From Pseudoalteromonas shioyasakiensis (GTDB taxonomy: Bacteria; Pseudomonadota; Gammaproteobacteria; Enterobacterales; Alteromonadaceae): DNA of 64,000 bases. The stretch spans positions 1,570,001 to 1,634,000 of the forward strand of contig NZ_CP077770.1 in NCBI RefSeq assembly GCF_019134595.1. The letters are read 5' to 3'. A program made the position numbers and the translations under genes. Below, in pieces: positions 50,020 to 54,533 of the stretch (within the stretch, counting starts at the first letter, position 1; every line of letters begins with the position of its first letter). Under the pieces are notes generated by a model that was not told the origin of the DNA, searched no databases, and saw only the letters and a list, made by a program, of their open reading frames with translations.

Positions 50020-51465
50020 TTACATGCTTTGTGCGTAATTGTACAAGGCTTTTAATATATGCAGATTTTTCTCGTTATCATCATTTTCATGAGCCAGATT
50101 TTCAAGGGTGATCATGAAATCTTGGCCACTGATCGACGGGCCATCTTCACCGTGCATTAGCTTGTTTTGGCAATACTGGCGCCATTTTGCTAATTCATCT
50201 TGGCTAAGGGTGTCTGGCCAGTTTCGAGCGCGGTATCTAAATAACAAGGTAGCAAACTTATTATCATCAAAATCAAGCTGCATTGAGGCTAATTGCTCAG
50301 GGCTTGCATCTCGAATTATGGCAAATTTAGCTTTATCGGCATGGCTGGTAAAGCCATCATAAAGTTGATAATCAGGGTTAGTGGTTTCGCCATAATCACG
50401 CTGTTCGTTAAACACTTCGGTGACTTTGTCGCGAAGTTCTGAGTTGGCTTTTAAAATAGCGAGATTTTGTAAGCATTTTTCGCGGTCAATACCTAAACGC
50501 GATGCGTTCTCTGGCAACAAGGTTTTTGCTGGTGCAAGAATAGGGCACTTATTTAAATGCACGAGTTTTAAGCCTACCGGTGCTTCGTCTTCGCCAAGGT
50601 CGCTGTGTTTTGTGTAAAGGCGAGTGCGTAGATCTTCAACTGATAAATCTAATAAAACTTGCGGATCTTCAGTTAAATTAAAGCAAATAATGGCGTTTTT
50701 ATTGACTGGGTGAAAGCTCATTGGTGCAATCCAGCTGGTGCAGCCTTGGCTTGCCGGAATTCGTGACGAGGTGTGTACCAGTGGTGTCATGTTAAATACA
50801 TCAACTAAATCGGCCAGTGCTTTTTTAGAGCGTAAGCTAAAGAAAAACTGATACAACTTTGGTTGTTTTTCTTTTATTAATTTTGCCAGCGCTATGGTTG
50901 CTGTTACATCACTTAAAGCATCGTGAGCGGCAGCGTGTTCAATGCCATTGGCAACGGTTAAGTGCTCGAGCTTAAAGCTTGGTGTACCGTCTTCTTTAAG
51001 CGGCCACTCAATGCCTTCTGGGCGTAGTGCATAACAGGCACGCACTAAATCAATAATATCCCAGCGGCTATTATTGTTTTTGTATTCACGCTCGTATGGG
51101 TCATAAAAGTTACGATATAAGCTGTAACGTGTGACTTCATCATCAAAACGAATACTGTTATAGCCCGCAACACAGGTATTAGGTTGGCTAAATTCAGCAT
51201 GGATCTTTGCCATAAACTCAGCTTCAACTAAGCCTTTTTGCATCGCAACTTGCGGGGTAATACCCGTTATTAAACACGCTTCAGGGTGGGGCAAGTAATC
51301 GGCAGCTGGCTTGCAATACTCAATTAACGGCTCACCAATAATATTCAAATCGAGATCGGTACGAATACCTGCAAATTGACTCGGGCGGTCCTTTTGCGGG
51401 CTTGCGCCAAATGTTTCGTAGTCGTGCCAATAAATTGTTGGTTGCTGTTGTTCTGGATATGCCAT
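50020..51465 (-). CDS. sbcB: Exodeoxyribonuclease I
   Basis: 3'-5' exonuclease on single-stranded DNA, acting in mismatch repair and recombination. 481 residues, the family's usual length (E. coli 475). The DEDDh nuclease domain has exo I in IYWHDYETFGASPQKDRPSQFAGIRTD (about 9-36), exo II near CVAGYNSIRFDDEVTRYSLYRNFYDPY and exo III in HAAAHDALSDVTATIALAKLI. The C-terminal ExoI-specific domain contains DPQVLLDLSVEDLRTRLYTK. It is monocistronic and convergent with the dehydrogenase gene. Confidence 0.96.
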   Translation of the reverse strand: MAYPEQQQPTIYWHDYETFGASPQKDRPSQFAGIRTDLDLNIIGEPLIEYCKPAADYLPHPEACLITGITPQVAMQKGLVEAEFMAKIHAEFSQPNTCVAGYNSIRFDDEVTRYSLYRNFYDPYEREYKNNNSRWDIIDLVRACYALRPEGIEWPLKEDGTPSFKLEHLTVANGIEHAAAHDALSDVTATIALAKLIKEKQPKLYQFFFSLRSKKALADLVDVFNMTPLVHTSSRIPASQGCTSWIAPMSFHPVNKNAIICFNLTEDPQVLLDLSVEDLRTRLYTKHSDLGEDEAPVGLKLVHLNKCPILAPAKTLLPENASRLGIDREKCLQNLAILKANSELRDKVTEVFNEQRDYGETTNPDYQLYDGFTSHADKAKFAIIRDASPEQLASMQLDFDDNKFATLLFRYRARNWPDTLSQDELAKWRQYCQNKLMHGEDGPSISGQDFMITLENLAHENDDNEKNLHILKALYNYAQSM

Positions 51466-51730
51466 GCATTAAACCTTGCTAAGCGTCGGGCCGCTTTGAC
51501 TTATTTTTTGAATTAACAGAATTATGGCATAGAGCCTAGCTAGTTTATAGAGCTAAACGGTTTGATACTGTTCAGCGTACGTTTTGCATACACGGTTAGT
51601 ATAAAAAATGGCCTAACGATTTAATTTTATGCTTATATAGGGTCTAGTCGTTAGTTTTTACCCAAATTTGTATTTTAGTGGCTCGGTATTTGCTAACGAA
51701 AACTATCTTTAACAATGAAGGAACAAAAAA
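51466..51730. promoter_or_regulatory. Regulatory region before the repeat-peptide gene, with CTAACGA motifs
   Basis: The 7-base CTAACGA occurs at 51613-51619 and 51692-51698, and as its complement TCGTTAG at 51648-51654. The three copies span 86 bases. A weak -10 (TATTTT, 51671-51676) lies between the second and third. The motifs look like binding sites for a dimeric or repeated regulator. No other gene is seen here. Confidence 0.4.
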
Positions 51731-51907
51731 ATGACTTTATCAGCTTTATTACTATCTACTTTAGCATTCGACGCAGCACCAGCTCCTAGCTTTGATACTA
51801 CAAAACTTCAAGGCTCTGGTGGAATCGTAATCATTAAAGAAAAGAAAAAGGAAGAGCTACAAGGTTCTGGTGGAATAGTGATTATTAAAGAAAAAAAACC
51901 TAACTAA
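51731..51907 (+). CDS. 58-residue peptide with two identical 14-residue repeats
   Basis: ATG 51731 follows AAGGA at the right distance, and a strong terminator lies 20 bases after the stop. The N-terminus (MTLSALLLSTLAFDAAPAPS) resembles a short signal sequence or a leader. Then LQGSGGIVIIKEKK occurs twice, at residues 26-39 and 43-56, 17 residues apart. At DNA level the two 42-base copies (51806-51847 and 51857-51898) differ at six positions, all synonymous third positions. This shows that the peptide repeat, not the DNA, is being kept. No family is recognised. It may be a secreted small protein, a binding or adhesive peptide, or a precursor processed into two like products; no processing enzymes are adjacent. 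Confidence 0.75.
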   Translation: MTLSALLLSTLAFDAAPAPSFDTTKLQGSGGIVIIKEKKKEELQGSGGIVIIKEKKPN

Positions 51908-51926
51908 ACAATAGACTATTCAAAAT

Positions 51927-51953
51927 AACCAGCTCAAACAGCTGGTTTTTTTT
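51927..51953 (+). terminator. Terminator of the repeat-peptide gene
   Basis: AACCAGCT/AGCTGGTT with a short CAAAC loop, then TTTTTT. Its strength supports 51731-51907 as a separate transcript. Confidence 0.9.
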
Positions 51954-51995
51954 GCTACATAGTAATATCCTTATGCTTGGTGTGAAGGGTAAACT

Positions 51996-52583
51996 ATGTT
52001 TGAATACTTAGCAGAATTATACAACAAGGCATTATTGGTCAGTGAAAACAGAGAAGTGTTTTCATATCAAGTACTCATATCATTGTCTTACCTCTTAGCC
52101 CTCATATTTTCAATGATACGAGCAGTAAAAGATAAAGAGTTATTTAGTGACTTTTTAACAATAGCTGTTGTCGTCACGAAATACATGCTTACAACATTAT
52201 TAATGGAATATGCATTGACTTATATTCAAGAAAATCATGCAGTTGATAATGTTCAGAATGTTTATCTTGGTTTAAGCGCTACTTCATTGTTTAGTATGTA
52301 TGTGCTTGCAAAGCTCCATGAAAAGTTTAGTTATAAGTTTGGCTTGCTATTCTTTTGCGTAATTAAGCTAACAGTAGTTCTTTCAATAGCTCACTTTATT
52401 CTTTGGTTTAAGTTTGTTGTGTTAGACATACAAGCTGAACACGCCTACATACACTACATGTATAGCTTTATTGTGCTCTATATAAGTATTGTGCTTGCTG
52501 TAGTGATGTTGTTCCCAGGCCTTTTGAAAACGAAATTAAAACTTTTGCTTAGTCCAAGCTGGCCGTTTGGAACAAAAAATTAA
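51996..52583 (+). CDS. Multi-pass membrane protein, unrecognised
   Basis: 195 residues with about five membrane helices, including VLISLSYLLALIFSMIRAV, FLTIAVVVTKYMLTTLLMEYAL, LSATSLFSMYVLAKL, FGLLFFCVIKLTVVLSIAHFI and YSFIVLYISIVLAVVMLFPGLL. The start at 51996 is followed by a soluble helix. No family is recognised. It lies 88 bases after the repeat-peptide gene on the same strand, but a strong terminator lies between them, so separate transcription is likely. Confidence 0.6.
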   Translation: MFEYLAELYNKALLVSENREVFSYQVLISLSYLLALIFSMIRAVKDKELFSDFLTIAVVVTKYMLTTLLMEYALTYIQENHAVDNVQNVYLGLSATSLFSMYVLAKLHEKFSYKFGLLFFCVIKLTVVLSIAHFILWFKFVVLDIQAEHAYIHYMYSFIVLYISIVLAVVMLFPGLLKTKLKLLLSPSWPFGTKN

Positions 52584-52695
52584 CATGAATTTATGATGCT
52601 TTTCAGTCTCATACCATCATTTATAATGCTTTTTCCTGATGTATTACGGACCAAGTTTGGGTGTATAGTAACATTTAGTTTACCGAGGGATCGTA

Positions 52696-53076
52696 ATGCT
52701 TGAACTAATTTACATAGCCATTGCCGTTTTAGCTGTCTTGCTGATTGCAAGTACATGGCTAATAGCGCGAAAAAATATCTTCGAAGATCAAATCAGGTCT
52801 AAATCTGTTGAGGTTGTTTGGTGCACGTTACAAGCCGAGCATGAACCAGATATCAGCAAAGCAATTAAACTATTCAATAAAGCTGAACAACTAAAGAGCG
52901 AAATAGCCACTTTAATGGGCAATTCACCGCACGCTGCACATTTTAAATTAGCAGAACCGAGCGGGCTTGATAGCGATAAAATAAAGGAGTTATCGCTTGG
53001 GGAGCTGCAGCGATACTACGATAAGCAAAACAACATATCTGACATTTACAATAAAATGTACAAAGGTAAGAATTAG
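52696..53076 (+). CDS. Small single-pass membrane protein, unrecognised
   Basis: 126 residues. The N-terminal membrane helix is LIYIAIAVLAVLLIASTWLIA, followed by a cytoplasmic helical part with KAIKLFNKAEQLKSEIATLMGNSPHAAHF. GAGGG lies before the ATG. No family is recognised. It is convergent with the CI-like gene, with 12 bases between their ends. Confidence 0.55.
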   Translation: MLELIYIAIAVLAVLLIASTWLIARKNIFEDQIRSKSVEVVWCTLQAEHEPDISKAIKLFNKAEQLKSEIATLMGNSPHAAHFKLAEPSGLDSDKIKELSLGELQRYYDKQNNISDIYNKMYKGKN

Positions 53077-53100
53077 TAAAAAGCCAGGTTATTTAACCTG
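53077..53100 (-). terminator. Terminator overlapping the stop of the CI-like gene
   Basis: CAGGTTA/TAACCTG with a two-base centre. On the minus strand GCTTTTTAC follows. The stop codon at 53089-53091 lies in the stem. Confidence 0.7.
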
Positions 53101-53508
53101 ACTTTGTATTTGTAGCTCATTTTCTATTTGTTTTAGCTGAATGTCAGCAAGTTGCTTAAGCGCTTCTTGTGTTTGGTTTTCACCCTTAATTATCCCTGCC
53201 ATTGATAGCTTTTTTATACTCTTGATAATACCGTTACTCACTGCTTCTAATACCGGCCCATCGAGTGTAGCTGTGGTTTGGTTATTACCATTAAGTAGTG
53301 AATCAAAGCTAACCTCAGAAGCTTTAGCCACTTTATCAATTAACTCATAAGGCACAGCTGCAAGCTCAATACTTTGCTCACAAAAGCCAAGTTGTAATGA
53401 TAAATGTTGCTCTAATTCTAAATTATTTCGCACCTGGCAAAGCGTACATAAGCGCATAAAAATATCACTTACATGCTGTTGCTCAGTGCTGAGCGTTTGA
53501 TTGAACAT
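53089..53508 (-). CDS. Small protein with a degenerate CI-repressor-like helix-turn-helix
   Basis: The frame runs to 53673 but the upstream part overlaps the permease gene. ATG 53508 has AGGA six bases before it and gives 139 residues starting MFNQTLSTEQQ. Residues about 12-70 (CQVRNNLELEQHLSLQLGFCEQSIEL, then VPYELIDKVAKASEVSFDSLLNG) match the pattern of phage CI-type helix-turn-helix domains (…VPYELLxxxAxxxGVSxDWLLxG). The tail (KQLADIQLKQIENELQIQSQV) is a short coiled coil. It may be a DNA-binding or regulatory protein; no phage genes are around it. Confidence 0.6.
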   Translation of the reverse strand: MFNQTLSTEQQHVSDIFMRLCTLCQVRNNLELEQHLSLQLGFCEQSIELAAVPYELIDKVAKASEVSFDSLLNGNNQTTATLDGPVLEAVSNGIIKSIKKLSMAGIIKGENQTQEALKQLADIQLKQIENELQIQSQVK

Positions 53509-53591
53509 AGCATGTCCTTGCACTGCTTTTTTATTTATATTAAACGACTTTTTTAAAAATCTCATGCATAAAGTGATAGTTATCGAATTTT

Positions 53592-54533
53592 TTAACTCAT
53601 ATACAATGCTATTTGATGATACAAGCCAATTCCTAGTAATACATTGAAAGGAAAGGTAATGCCTAAAGAACATAACATGGCTAAGCCTATATCAGCATCA
53701 GGAATAGCTGCTTTTATAGCGGCTGGAGCTGCAATATAAGAGGCACTTGCAACTAGGCTTGCTAATATCACTACCGAGCCCAGCTCTAGTTGAAGGGCTG
53801 TACCCACACAGACGCCGATGGCTCCTAATAGGTTAGGTGTTATAAGTGCAAATAATGCTAAACGCCAATGATGCCATGGAATAGGGCGTAGTGTTTGTGC
53901 GGCCATTAAACCCATTTCGAGCAAGAATAACGCTAATACAACTTTAAAGCTGTTTGTTAACAGGCTAGTTACTTGGCTGCCTTGTTGTGTGCCGTACATC
54001 ATGCCAATAATCACACCACCTACAAGCAGGATCACGCTTTTGTTAGTGAGTGTTTCATGCCACAGCGCTTTTAGTGATAGGTTTTGCCCAGAACCATTTC
54101 CAAGACGACGGAATAGTAATAAACCAACGATGATGGCCGGTAATTCAAGCATTACTAAATAAAGCGTAACTTCAGCACCAACATTTAGAGAGTTCGATTC
54201 GGCATAAGCTAAAGCAACGGCAAATGTCCCCGCGCTTACTGAGCCGTAATGGGCGGCAATACTTGCGCTATTAGCAACAGAGAGTTTTAGCAATTTGTTT
54301 AAAACAGGGTACAGCATTAATGGTATTAAGCCCCCAAGCAGTAACACAGCGCCCATTTCGGGTAAGAGTTGCCAATGTAAATTGCCATGCAGCACCATAC
54401 CACCTTTTAAGCCAATGGTGAGCATTAGCAATAGGCTAAGGGTTTCATAGGTTGCTTGCGGAATTTTTAAGTCAGAGCGAAGTAATCCGGCTGTCAGTCC
54501 TAAAACAAAAAACATTACAACAATATCAGGCAC
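53592..54533 (-). CDS. SbtA-type sodium-dependent bicarbonate permease
   Basis: 313 residues, about ten membrane helices, smaller than cyanobacterial SbtA. The family pattern is seen in YETLSLLLMLTIGLKGGMVL, NSASIAAHYGSVSAGTFAVALAYAES and ILASLVASASYIAAPAAIKAAIPDADIGLAMLCSLGITFPFNVLLGI (second half of the repeat). It would import bicarbonate with Na+, useful for carboxylases and carbamoyl-phosphate synthesis. It is divergent from a LysR regulator of the CbbR/CmpR type. No SbtB-like PII gene is nearby. Confidence 0.85.
   Translation of the reverse strand: MPDIVVMFFVLGLTAGLLRSDLKIPQATYETLSLLLMLTIGLKGGMVLHGNLHWQLLPEMGAVLLLGGLIPLMLYPVLNKLLKLSVANSASIAAHYGSVSAGTFAVALAYAESNSLNVGAEVTLYLVMLELPAIIVGLLLFRRLGNGSGQNLSLKALWHETLTNKSVILLVGGVIIGMMYGTQQGSQVTSLLTNSFKVVLALFLLEMGLMAAQTLRPIPWHHWRLALFALITPNLLGAIGVCVGTALQLELGSVVILASLVASASYIAAPAAIKAAIPDADIGLAMLCSLGITFPFNVLLGIGLYHQIALYMS

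Follow-up and report, generated by a model that had tools for sequence, protein, structure and literature searches.

Why should a 58-residue peptide of Pseudoalteromonas shioyasakiensis carry the same repeat, LQGSGGIVIIKEKK, twice, and with what does such a peptide act? We examined this question in a 64,000-nucleotide stretch of the genome (hereafter, the window), in which a first-pass annotation had described a small peptide gene whose two repeats are kept by selection. The peptide gene (PEP) belongs to a four-gene module that also encodes a membrane protein with five transmembrane helices (TM195), a protein with a single transmembrane helix (TM126) and a CI-like helix-turn-helix (HTH) protein. 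The first-pass annotation had overlooked these three partners, the copies of the module in phages, and the joint exchange of the repeats and TM195. The features of the module in the window are as follows.

51718..51723, + strand: PEP ribosome-binding site AAGGAA (Shine-Dalgarno pattern in 23/23 distinct relatives' coding sequences)
51731..51907, + strand: PEP, twin-repeat peptide gene, 58 aa (translation and homologue searches)
51731..51784, + strand: hydrophobic PEP leader, codons 1-18, common to alleles that differ downstream (the first difference to locus L102 after 51619 is at 51783)
51806..51847, + strand: repeat 1, 42 bases, LQGSGGIVIIKEKK (copy comparison)
51857..51898, + strand: repeat 2, 42 bases, LQGSGGIVIIKEKK (copy comparison)
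51927..51947, + strand: terminator hairpin between PEP and TM195, 8 pairs and then a T run (in 22/23 distinct genes)
51996..52583, + strand: TM195, 195 aa, five hydrophobic helices, the partner following repeat type
52696..53076, + strand: TM126, one N-terminal hydrophobic helix and a polar remainder with ELSLGEL, not following repeat type
53089..53508, - strand: CI-like HTH protein, 139 aa from the relatives' ATG, 34% identical to a Pfam-matched phage homologue

PEP is a real gene found on chromosomes and in phages

The open reading frame at 51731-51907 on the + strand encodes MTLSALLLSTLAFDAAPAPSFDTTKLQGSGGIVIIKEKKKEELQGSGGIVIIKEKKPN (58 aa). Re-translation and comparison of the copies reproduced the two occurrences of LQGSGGIVIIKEKK and the six silent third-position differences reported between them: the copies start 17 codons apart, and the six differences within their 42 bases all lie at third codon positions and are all silent (p ~5e-4 in a transition-weighted single-change model with ~28% of changes silent). 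The ribosome-binding site and terminator-like hairpin described earlier are likewise present in the window, and their patterns are kept in 23/23 and 22/23 distinct relatives' coding sequences, respectively, with L090 as the exception for the CCAGC...GCTGG stem and T run. The N-terminus, previously called signal-like, is plausible as such in being hydrophobic and ends in AAPA, but read by eye it is atypical in having no positive charge ahead of the hydrophobic stretch. A structured RNA family is unsupported for the locus, with 0 Rfam matches at gathering score in 51400-53800.

The protein database search returned 34 proteins at E <= 1.8e-7, including the window's own, and one further insignificant match. 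Across the genus, PEP had 18 convincing loci in 16 of 108 genomes (E <= 5.3e-22), while 51/108 genomes give a match once the limit is relaxed to 0.5. Across the order, 11 of 394 genomes match at E 0.1, of which only the window's own is convincing and the next best (0.003) falls in long open reading frames; the corresponding search with TM195 found only the window's own, to which a wider profile added one weak match (E 0.009). Six viral contigs carry PEP and the TM195 scan added four more, with PEP present in 9/9 viral contigs bearing TM195. Searches of named phage records by tblastn gave no match for PEP or TM195, named plasmids gave none for TM195, and viral-contig scans using both divergent TM195 relatives returned nothing. 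PEP and TM195 have no family in Pfam, NCBIfam, PHROGs or PADLOC (best PHROGs match only E 0.18 or worse), and a literature search of limited depth found no account of this gene family. Judged by the 33 other database proteins, the 18 genus loci and the phage copies, PEP is a real gene, as had been claimed.

The module keeps its order across three genomic contexts

Of 24 loci that were compared, 23 have the order PEP, terminator, TM195 and TM126, followed by the CI-like HTH gene facing them, and the remaining locus (L082) ends at PEP. PEP lies upstream of TM195 in 18/18 genus loci of the family. TM195 reads as N-out by the positive-inside rule, and its variation extends beyond the predicted periplasmic loops. 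Its AlphaFold model is fair (pLDDT 80.6) and had no significant structural match in the PDB or among viral proteins (best viral match E 0.73, probability 0.99, a phage protein of unknown function); the TM195 profile also had no match among PDB sequences. The window's TM195, TM126 and CI-like protein gave no Pfam match, and the phage homologue L081, 34% identical to the CI-like protein, matches Phage_CI_repr (PF07022, E 3.8e-5, above its cut-off). None of the four proteins matched the anti-phage defence models of PADLOC, and neither an export system nor a protease or kinase was recognised for the module.

The module occurs in three contexts: on the chromosome between sbcB and the gene of an Sbt_1 (bicarbonate) transporter (SbtA); on ~50 kb contigs with a divergent serine recombinase and ParA, one of which (G066:C12) was read whole and has capsid and portal genes; and adjoining a phage integrase (L101/L172 and L104/L173). 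All 13 window-clade genomes examined carry it. SbtA had a match in 61/108 genomes, and among the best 30 SbtA loci the module accompanies every one of the 13 whose SbtA identity is 91% or more, whereas 16 of the other 17 have no module within 1.5 kb and one (L200) ends too near to judge. In G003 a ~38 kb prophage (phage integrase, P2-type replication protein and terminase; L138, L139) lies between sbcB and PEP, and therefore this intergenic region serves as an integration site; in G082 the same interval holds ~4.5 kb of other genes. By eye, a palindrome near CTCTAGGGTTTACCCTAAAG lies ~60-110 bases upstream of PEP in the phage loci L081, L083, L084, L085 and L086, between the serine recombinase and PEP, and none was seen upstream of the window's PEP. 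This palindrome might be an operator or a crossover site.

The two repeats vary between genes and match within genes

Among 46 distinct two-repeat proteins we found 23 distinct repeat-pair types (over nine residues), of which 12 are identical pairs, with a consensus of roughly Lx[GN][ST]GGI[VI]I..PKKK. The repeat pair is retained in homologues elsewhere. Within-gene repeat identity is 0.949 for the 46 proteins (0.918 over distinct pairs) versus 0.698 when permuted, and 0/20000 permutations reach the observed value. The silent versus replacement comparison proposed earlier was extended to the copies in 23 distinct coding sequences drawn from 28 loci, which differ at 98 silent nucleotides versus 6 replaced codons of 207, where ~27% of random changes are expected to be silent. 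Because silent sites differ to this extent, recent duplication or gene conversion as the sole cause of repeat identity is out for most genes; the 9-codon copies of L085 are identical in DNA, so conversion can occur. The silent divergence and the ratio of 98 to 6 therefore indicate that both copies have been held to one type in the long term, though not absolutely, with two proteins (P0022 and P0026) having two clearly different repeat types inside one peptide. Three single-repeat variants (P0021, P0023 and P0034), all from contigs < 1 kb, may be collapsed assemblies.

The earlier proposal of purifying selection on the peptide sequence is thus upheld in that selection acts, but not in that the repeat sequence is fixed, as the 23 types demonstrate. 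Since the repeat sequence varies while both copies diversify in step within a gene, this looks like selection for copies that match each other and a partner rather than plain conservation.

The repeat half of PEP and TM195 are exchanged together

Distances between repeats track those between TM195 sequences (Mantel r=0.75, p=0.0001 for 13 chromosomal loci, and 0.57 over 21 loci, with related loci not being independent), and do not correlate with those of the leader (0.07), TM126 (0.00), CI (0.02) or SbtA (0.02). In the TM195 tree, chromosomal sequences cluster according to repeat type, and N[ST]GG types from phages and chromosomes fall together, while the TM126 tree groups by context, and three loci (L097, L098 and L100) have almost the same TM126 with three repeat types. 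L085 shares the nine-residue type of the window, yet its TM195 groups with those of phages, and the remaining ten chromosomal TM195 form one clade; therefore, context matters too. Comparison of the chromosomal loci delimited two further features in the window.

51783..52615, + strand: exchangeable cassette of about 830 bp, the repeat half of PEP and TM195, delimited against L102 (G073)
52599..52697, + strand: stump in the TM195-TM126 interval, C-terminal part of a different TM195 allele (profile positions 162-194) of N[ST]GG type

The window and L102 are identical over 51620-51782, diverge over 51783-52615 and then agree at every base up to 52725. Scored in 60-base steps, the block itself shows 0-68% identity, the step spanning its right edge 73%, and the sequence outside it 88-100%. 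Base-by-base comparison places the first differences of L091 and L093 from the window at 51814 and 51832, within repeat 1, and much of the C-terminal third of TM195 is common to the window, L091 and L093. In these comparisons, the repeat half and TM195 behave as an exchangeable cassette between near-identical flanks. The TM195 stump is found in 10/13 chromosomal loci, and in the other three (L100, L102 and L103, of N[ST]GG types) the TM195 to which it corresponds is intact and overlaps TM126. In the simplest reading of this pattern, N[ST]GG would be the older resident at the chromosomal site, and other types would have replaced it.

As the repeats adjoin TM195, a single recombination block links both and requires no contact between their products. 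Two points speak for function: the block ends lie at the leader/repeat boundary and at the TM195 terminus or close to it, and the two halves of PEP have different histories. The pattern of a polymorphic peptide/partner specificity system, in which the specificity part and its partner are exchanged together and correlate while the output is shared, is found here at the level of sequence.

Distant relatives and look-alike sets

Distant TM195 homologues were found in two further sets, again beside small proteins that carry the motif seen in PEP. In L144 (G070), a TM195 homologue (E 1.3e-27) accompanies a 65-aa peptide with a signal that looks classical by eye and four GG-V-I-type repeats, including GSGGIVI, and the next gene encodes an N-terminal membrane segment, an LSLGEL motif and an AraC-type HTH (PF12833, 35.2 bits, cut-off 33.6). 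This LSLGEL protein has a short and weak motif link to TM126, with an hhalign probability of 10%. A search for homologues of the L144 peptide returned, apart from the query, a single insignificant match. In L145 (G044), a 73-aa protein with LQSGGIVLVPKK occurs with a TM195 homologue (E 6.7e-19), a small membrane protein and a CI-type HTH (PF07022). Beside a weaker set in L161 (E 2.4e-6, wider profile) there is a 47-aa peptide with GAGILPPKKK, and at L155:58-2171 three tandem genes for hydrophobic proteins of 171-214 aa, one weakly TM195-like (E 0.003), follow a 56-aa open reading frame with GARGGGTLEPRKGE. For these weak TM195 candidates, L155 and L161, alignment was uninformative.

A second set has the same layout and is unrelated in sequence, with a Gly-rich peptide of 35-39 aa (GG..GVEPP.. 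end), a hydrophobic protein of 182-183 aa and a protein of 114 aa.

L172:3200-4248, L173:3549-4610, L205:3580-4655 and L206:2691-3766: second set, immediately following the module in two phage loci and occurring by itself in phages C5a and ACA1

In the Pseudoalteromonas phages C5a and ACA1 (KY045851 and OR438928) the set corresponds to gp5-gp7, with the same order of a small Gly-rich peptide (39 aa) and hydrophobic proteins of 183 and 114 aa, located in the immunity region and without a named function in GenBank; its relatives directly after the PEP module are those of L172 and L173. Homology of this triad to the PEP module is unsupported, as profile comparison gave 1.1% and 0.3% for the 183-aa protein versus TM195 and 0.3% for the 114-aa protein versus TM126. 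In the available part of the ACA1 paper, gp4 is described as an SOS-type protease domain standing on its own, and the main text makes no mention of gp5 or gp6 (PMC10612066). A stand-alone S24/LexA-like protease gene recurs beside the peptide/membrane sets (L145:3074-3484, L173:1219-1590 and L205:2897-3265), assigned by Pfam for L145, by GenBank annotation for C5a and by eye for L173.

Discussion

The above analyses suggest a polymorphic locus for an exported peptide and its membrane partner, most likely serving cell-cell (or phage-phage) peptide signalling with TM195 as the receptor, a reading to which we give a probability of about 50%. The hydrophobic leader would insert PEP in the inner membrane or carry it across, and the repeat half would be the ligand, the two copies possibly being released as two equal units. 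TM195 would recognise its own repeat type, and the signal would be relayed to transcription by TM126 and the CI-like HTH protein, neither of which tracks the type. Diversity could then arise when repeats and TM195 are replaced as a unit while leader, TM126 and regulator stay in place. We infer all four steps, from export and processing to binding and signalling, from the sequences.

The main rival is a bacteriocin or short-range toxin, in which the cationic repeat peptide would harm kin, TM195 would confer immunity specific to the type and the cassette would be the polymorphic pair. Joint exchange of a peptide and its neighbour with stumps left over is what polymorphic toxin loci display, and the repeats of PEP are rich in lysine. 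A note within the GenBank record of ACA1 also states, for gp5 of the same layout, that HHpred weakly detects TIGR01847, a cleavage/export signal. We nevertheless consider this explanation unlikely: PEP, C5a gp5 and the other small peptides tested matched 0 NCBIfam families, among them the double-glycine leader (TIGR01847 or similar) that marks class II bacteriocins, no dedicated exporter was seen beside the module, and a membrane protein and an HTH protein that are independent of the allele fit signalling better. Signalling is preferred over toxin/immunity mainly because the HTH is joined to a membrane segment in L144.

Somewhat less probable is phage exclusion or lysis/lysogeny control inside the cell, by which a membrane complex of PEP and TM195 would block rivals or set the CI-like switch; the types would reflect which rivals are encountered, and no signal would pass between cells. 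The copies on capsid/portal contigs (G066:C12) and beside a phage integrase (L172), the CI-like HTH partner, and the position of the analogous C5a/ACA1 triad between an S24-type protease and the immunity repressor are all in keeping with it, whereas the chromosomal module stands in 13/13 clade genomes mostly without adjoining phage, and PADLOC gave no match. Self-pairing repeats (hairpin or amyloid-like stacking), with copies matching in order to pair together and TM195 hitch-hiking, are very doubtful, since despite the beta-prone GGIVII and two short strands at the repeats (30-35 and 47-52) in the AlphaFold model of PEP, that model is of low confidence (pLDDT 59, pTM 0.25) and self-pairing leaves unexplained the association of N[ST]GG types with a single TM195 clade in chromosomal and phage loci.

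Peptide signalling with TM195 as the receptor can be compared with known systems. In agr of staphylococci and comQXP of bacilli, a polymorphic peptide and its membrane partner are exchanged together and the output is common to the types. The PEP repeats and TM195 are similarly exchanged together with an output part common to types, but the module differs in having no histidine kinase, AgrB/ComQ-like modifying enzyme or response regulator, in its repeats within the peptide, and in being Gram-negative and phage-borne; no histidine kinase or AgrB-type Pfam domain was found in TM195, TM126 or the CI-like protein, and the flanks are sbcB and the bicarbonate transporter gene. Arbitrium/RRNPP systems combine a phage small peptide, a cognate partner and a lysogeny-type regulator, in which peptide and partner diversify together and the receptor is a cytoplasmic TPR protein. 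The PEP module resembles them in its small peptide, cognate partner, lysogeny-type regulator in phages and joint diversification, and differs in its Gram-negative host and in TM195, a multi-helix membrane protein rather than a cytoplasmic TPR receptor; the TPR and HTH receptor of RRNPP/arbitrium was not found, as no Pfam family was detected in TM195, TM126 or the CI-like protein. By analogy, the PEP locus would work like a polymorphic agr/comQXP without the kinase, and like arbitrium with a membrane partner.

Fungal alpha-factor-type precursors processed by KEX2 carry repeated units in one precursor, with known processing sites; the repeated units are as in PEP, although the system is eukaryotic. 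In the phage modules described by Silpe et al. 2023, a transcription factor activates expression of a neighbouring small protein, which in turn inactivates the repressor (PMC10432266). These modules share with PEP a phage-borne small open reading frame adjoining a transcription factor, and differ in that the words "membrane" and "secreted" are absent from the text as available, while the membrane partner of the PEP module varies with the peptide.

More tentatively, and with lower confidence than for the reading above, the module could represent an undescribed form of peptide communication in a Gram-negative genus and its temperate phages, built from an exported twin-repeat peptide, a five-helix receptor, a single-helix transducer and a CI-like or AraC-type regulator, in which peptide types are swapped as cassettes and which the host chromosome would have taken over. 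Even if the locus encodes a toxin and its immunity protein, it represents a polymorphic peptide family without a match in any curated library searched. The natural allele swaps in similar backgrounds (G073 versus the window genome, and G004, G082 and G081 with almost the same TM126) offer ready-made specificity experiments. If communication is indeed its role, the phage-borne system would be the membrane-receptor counterpart of arbitrium, and the genus would provide a genetically simple and testable peptide-type polymorphism in Gram-negative marine bacteria that is common to host chromosomes and phages.
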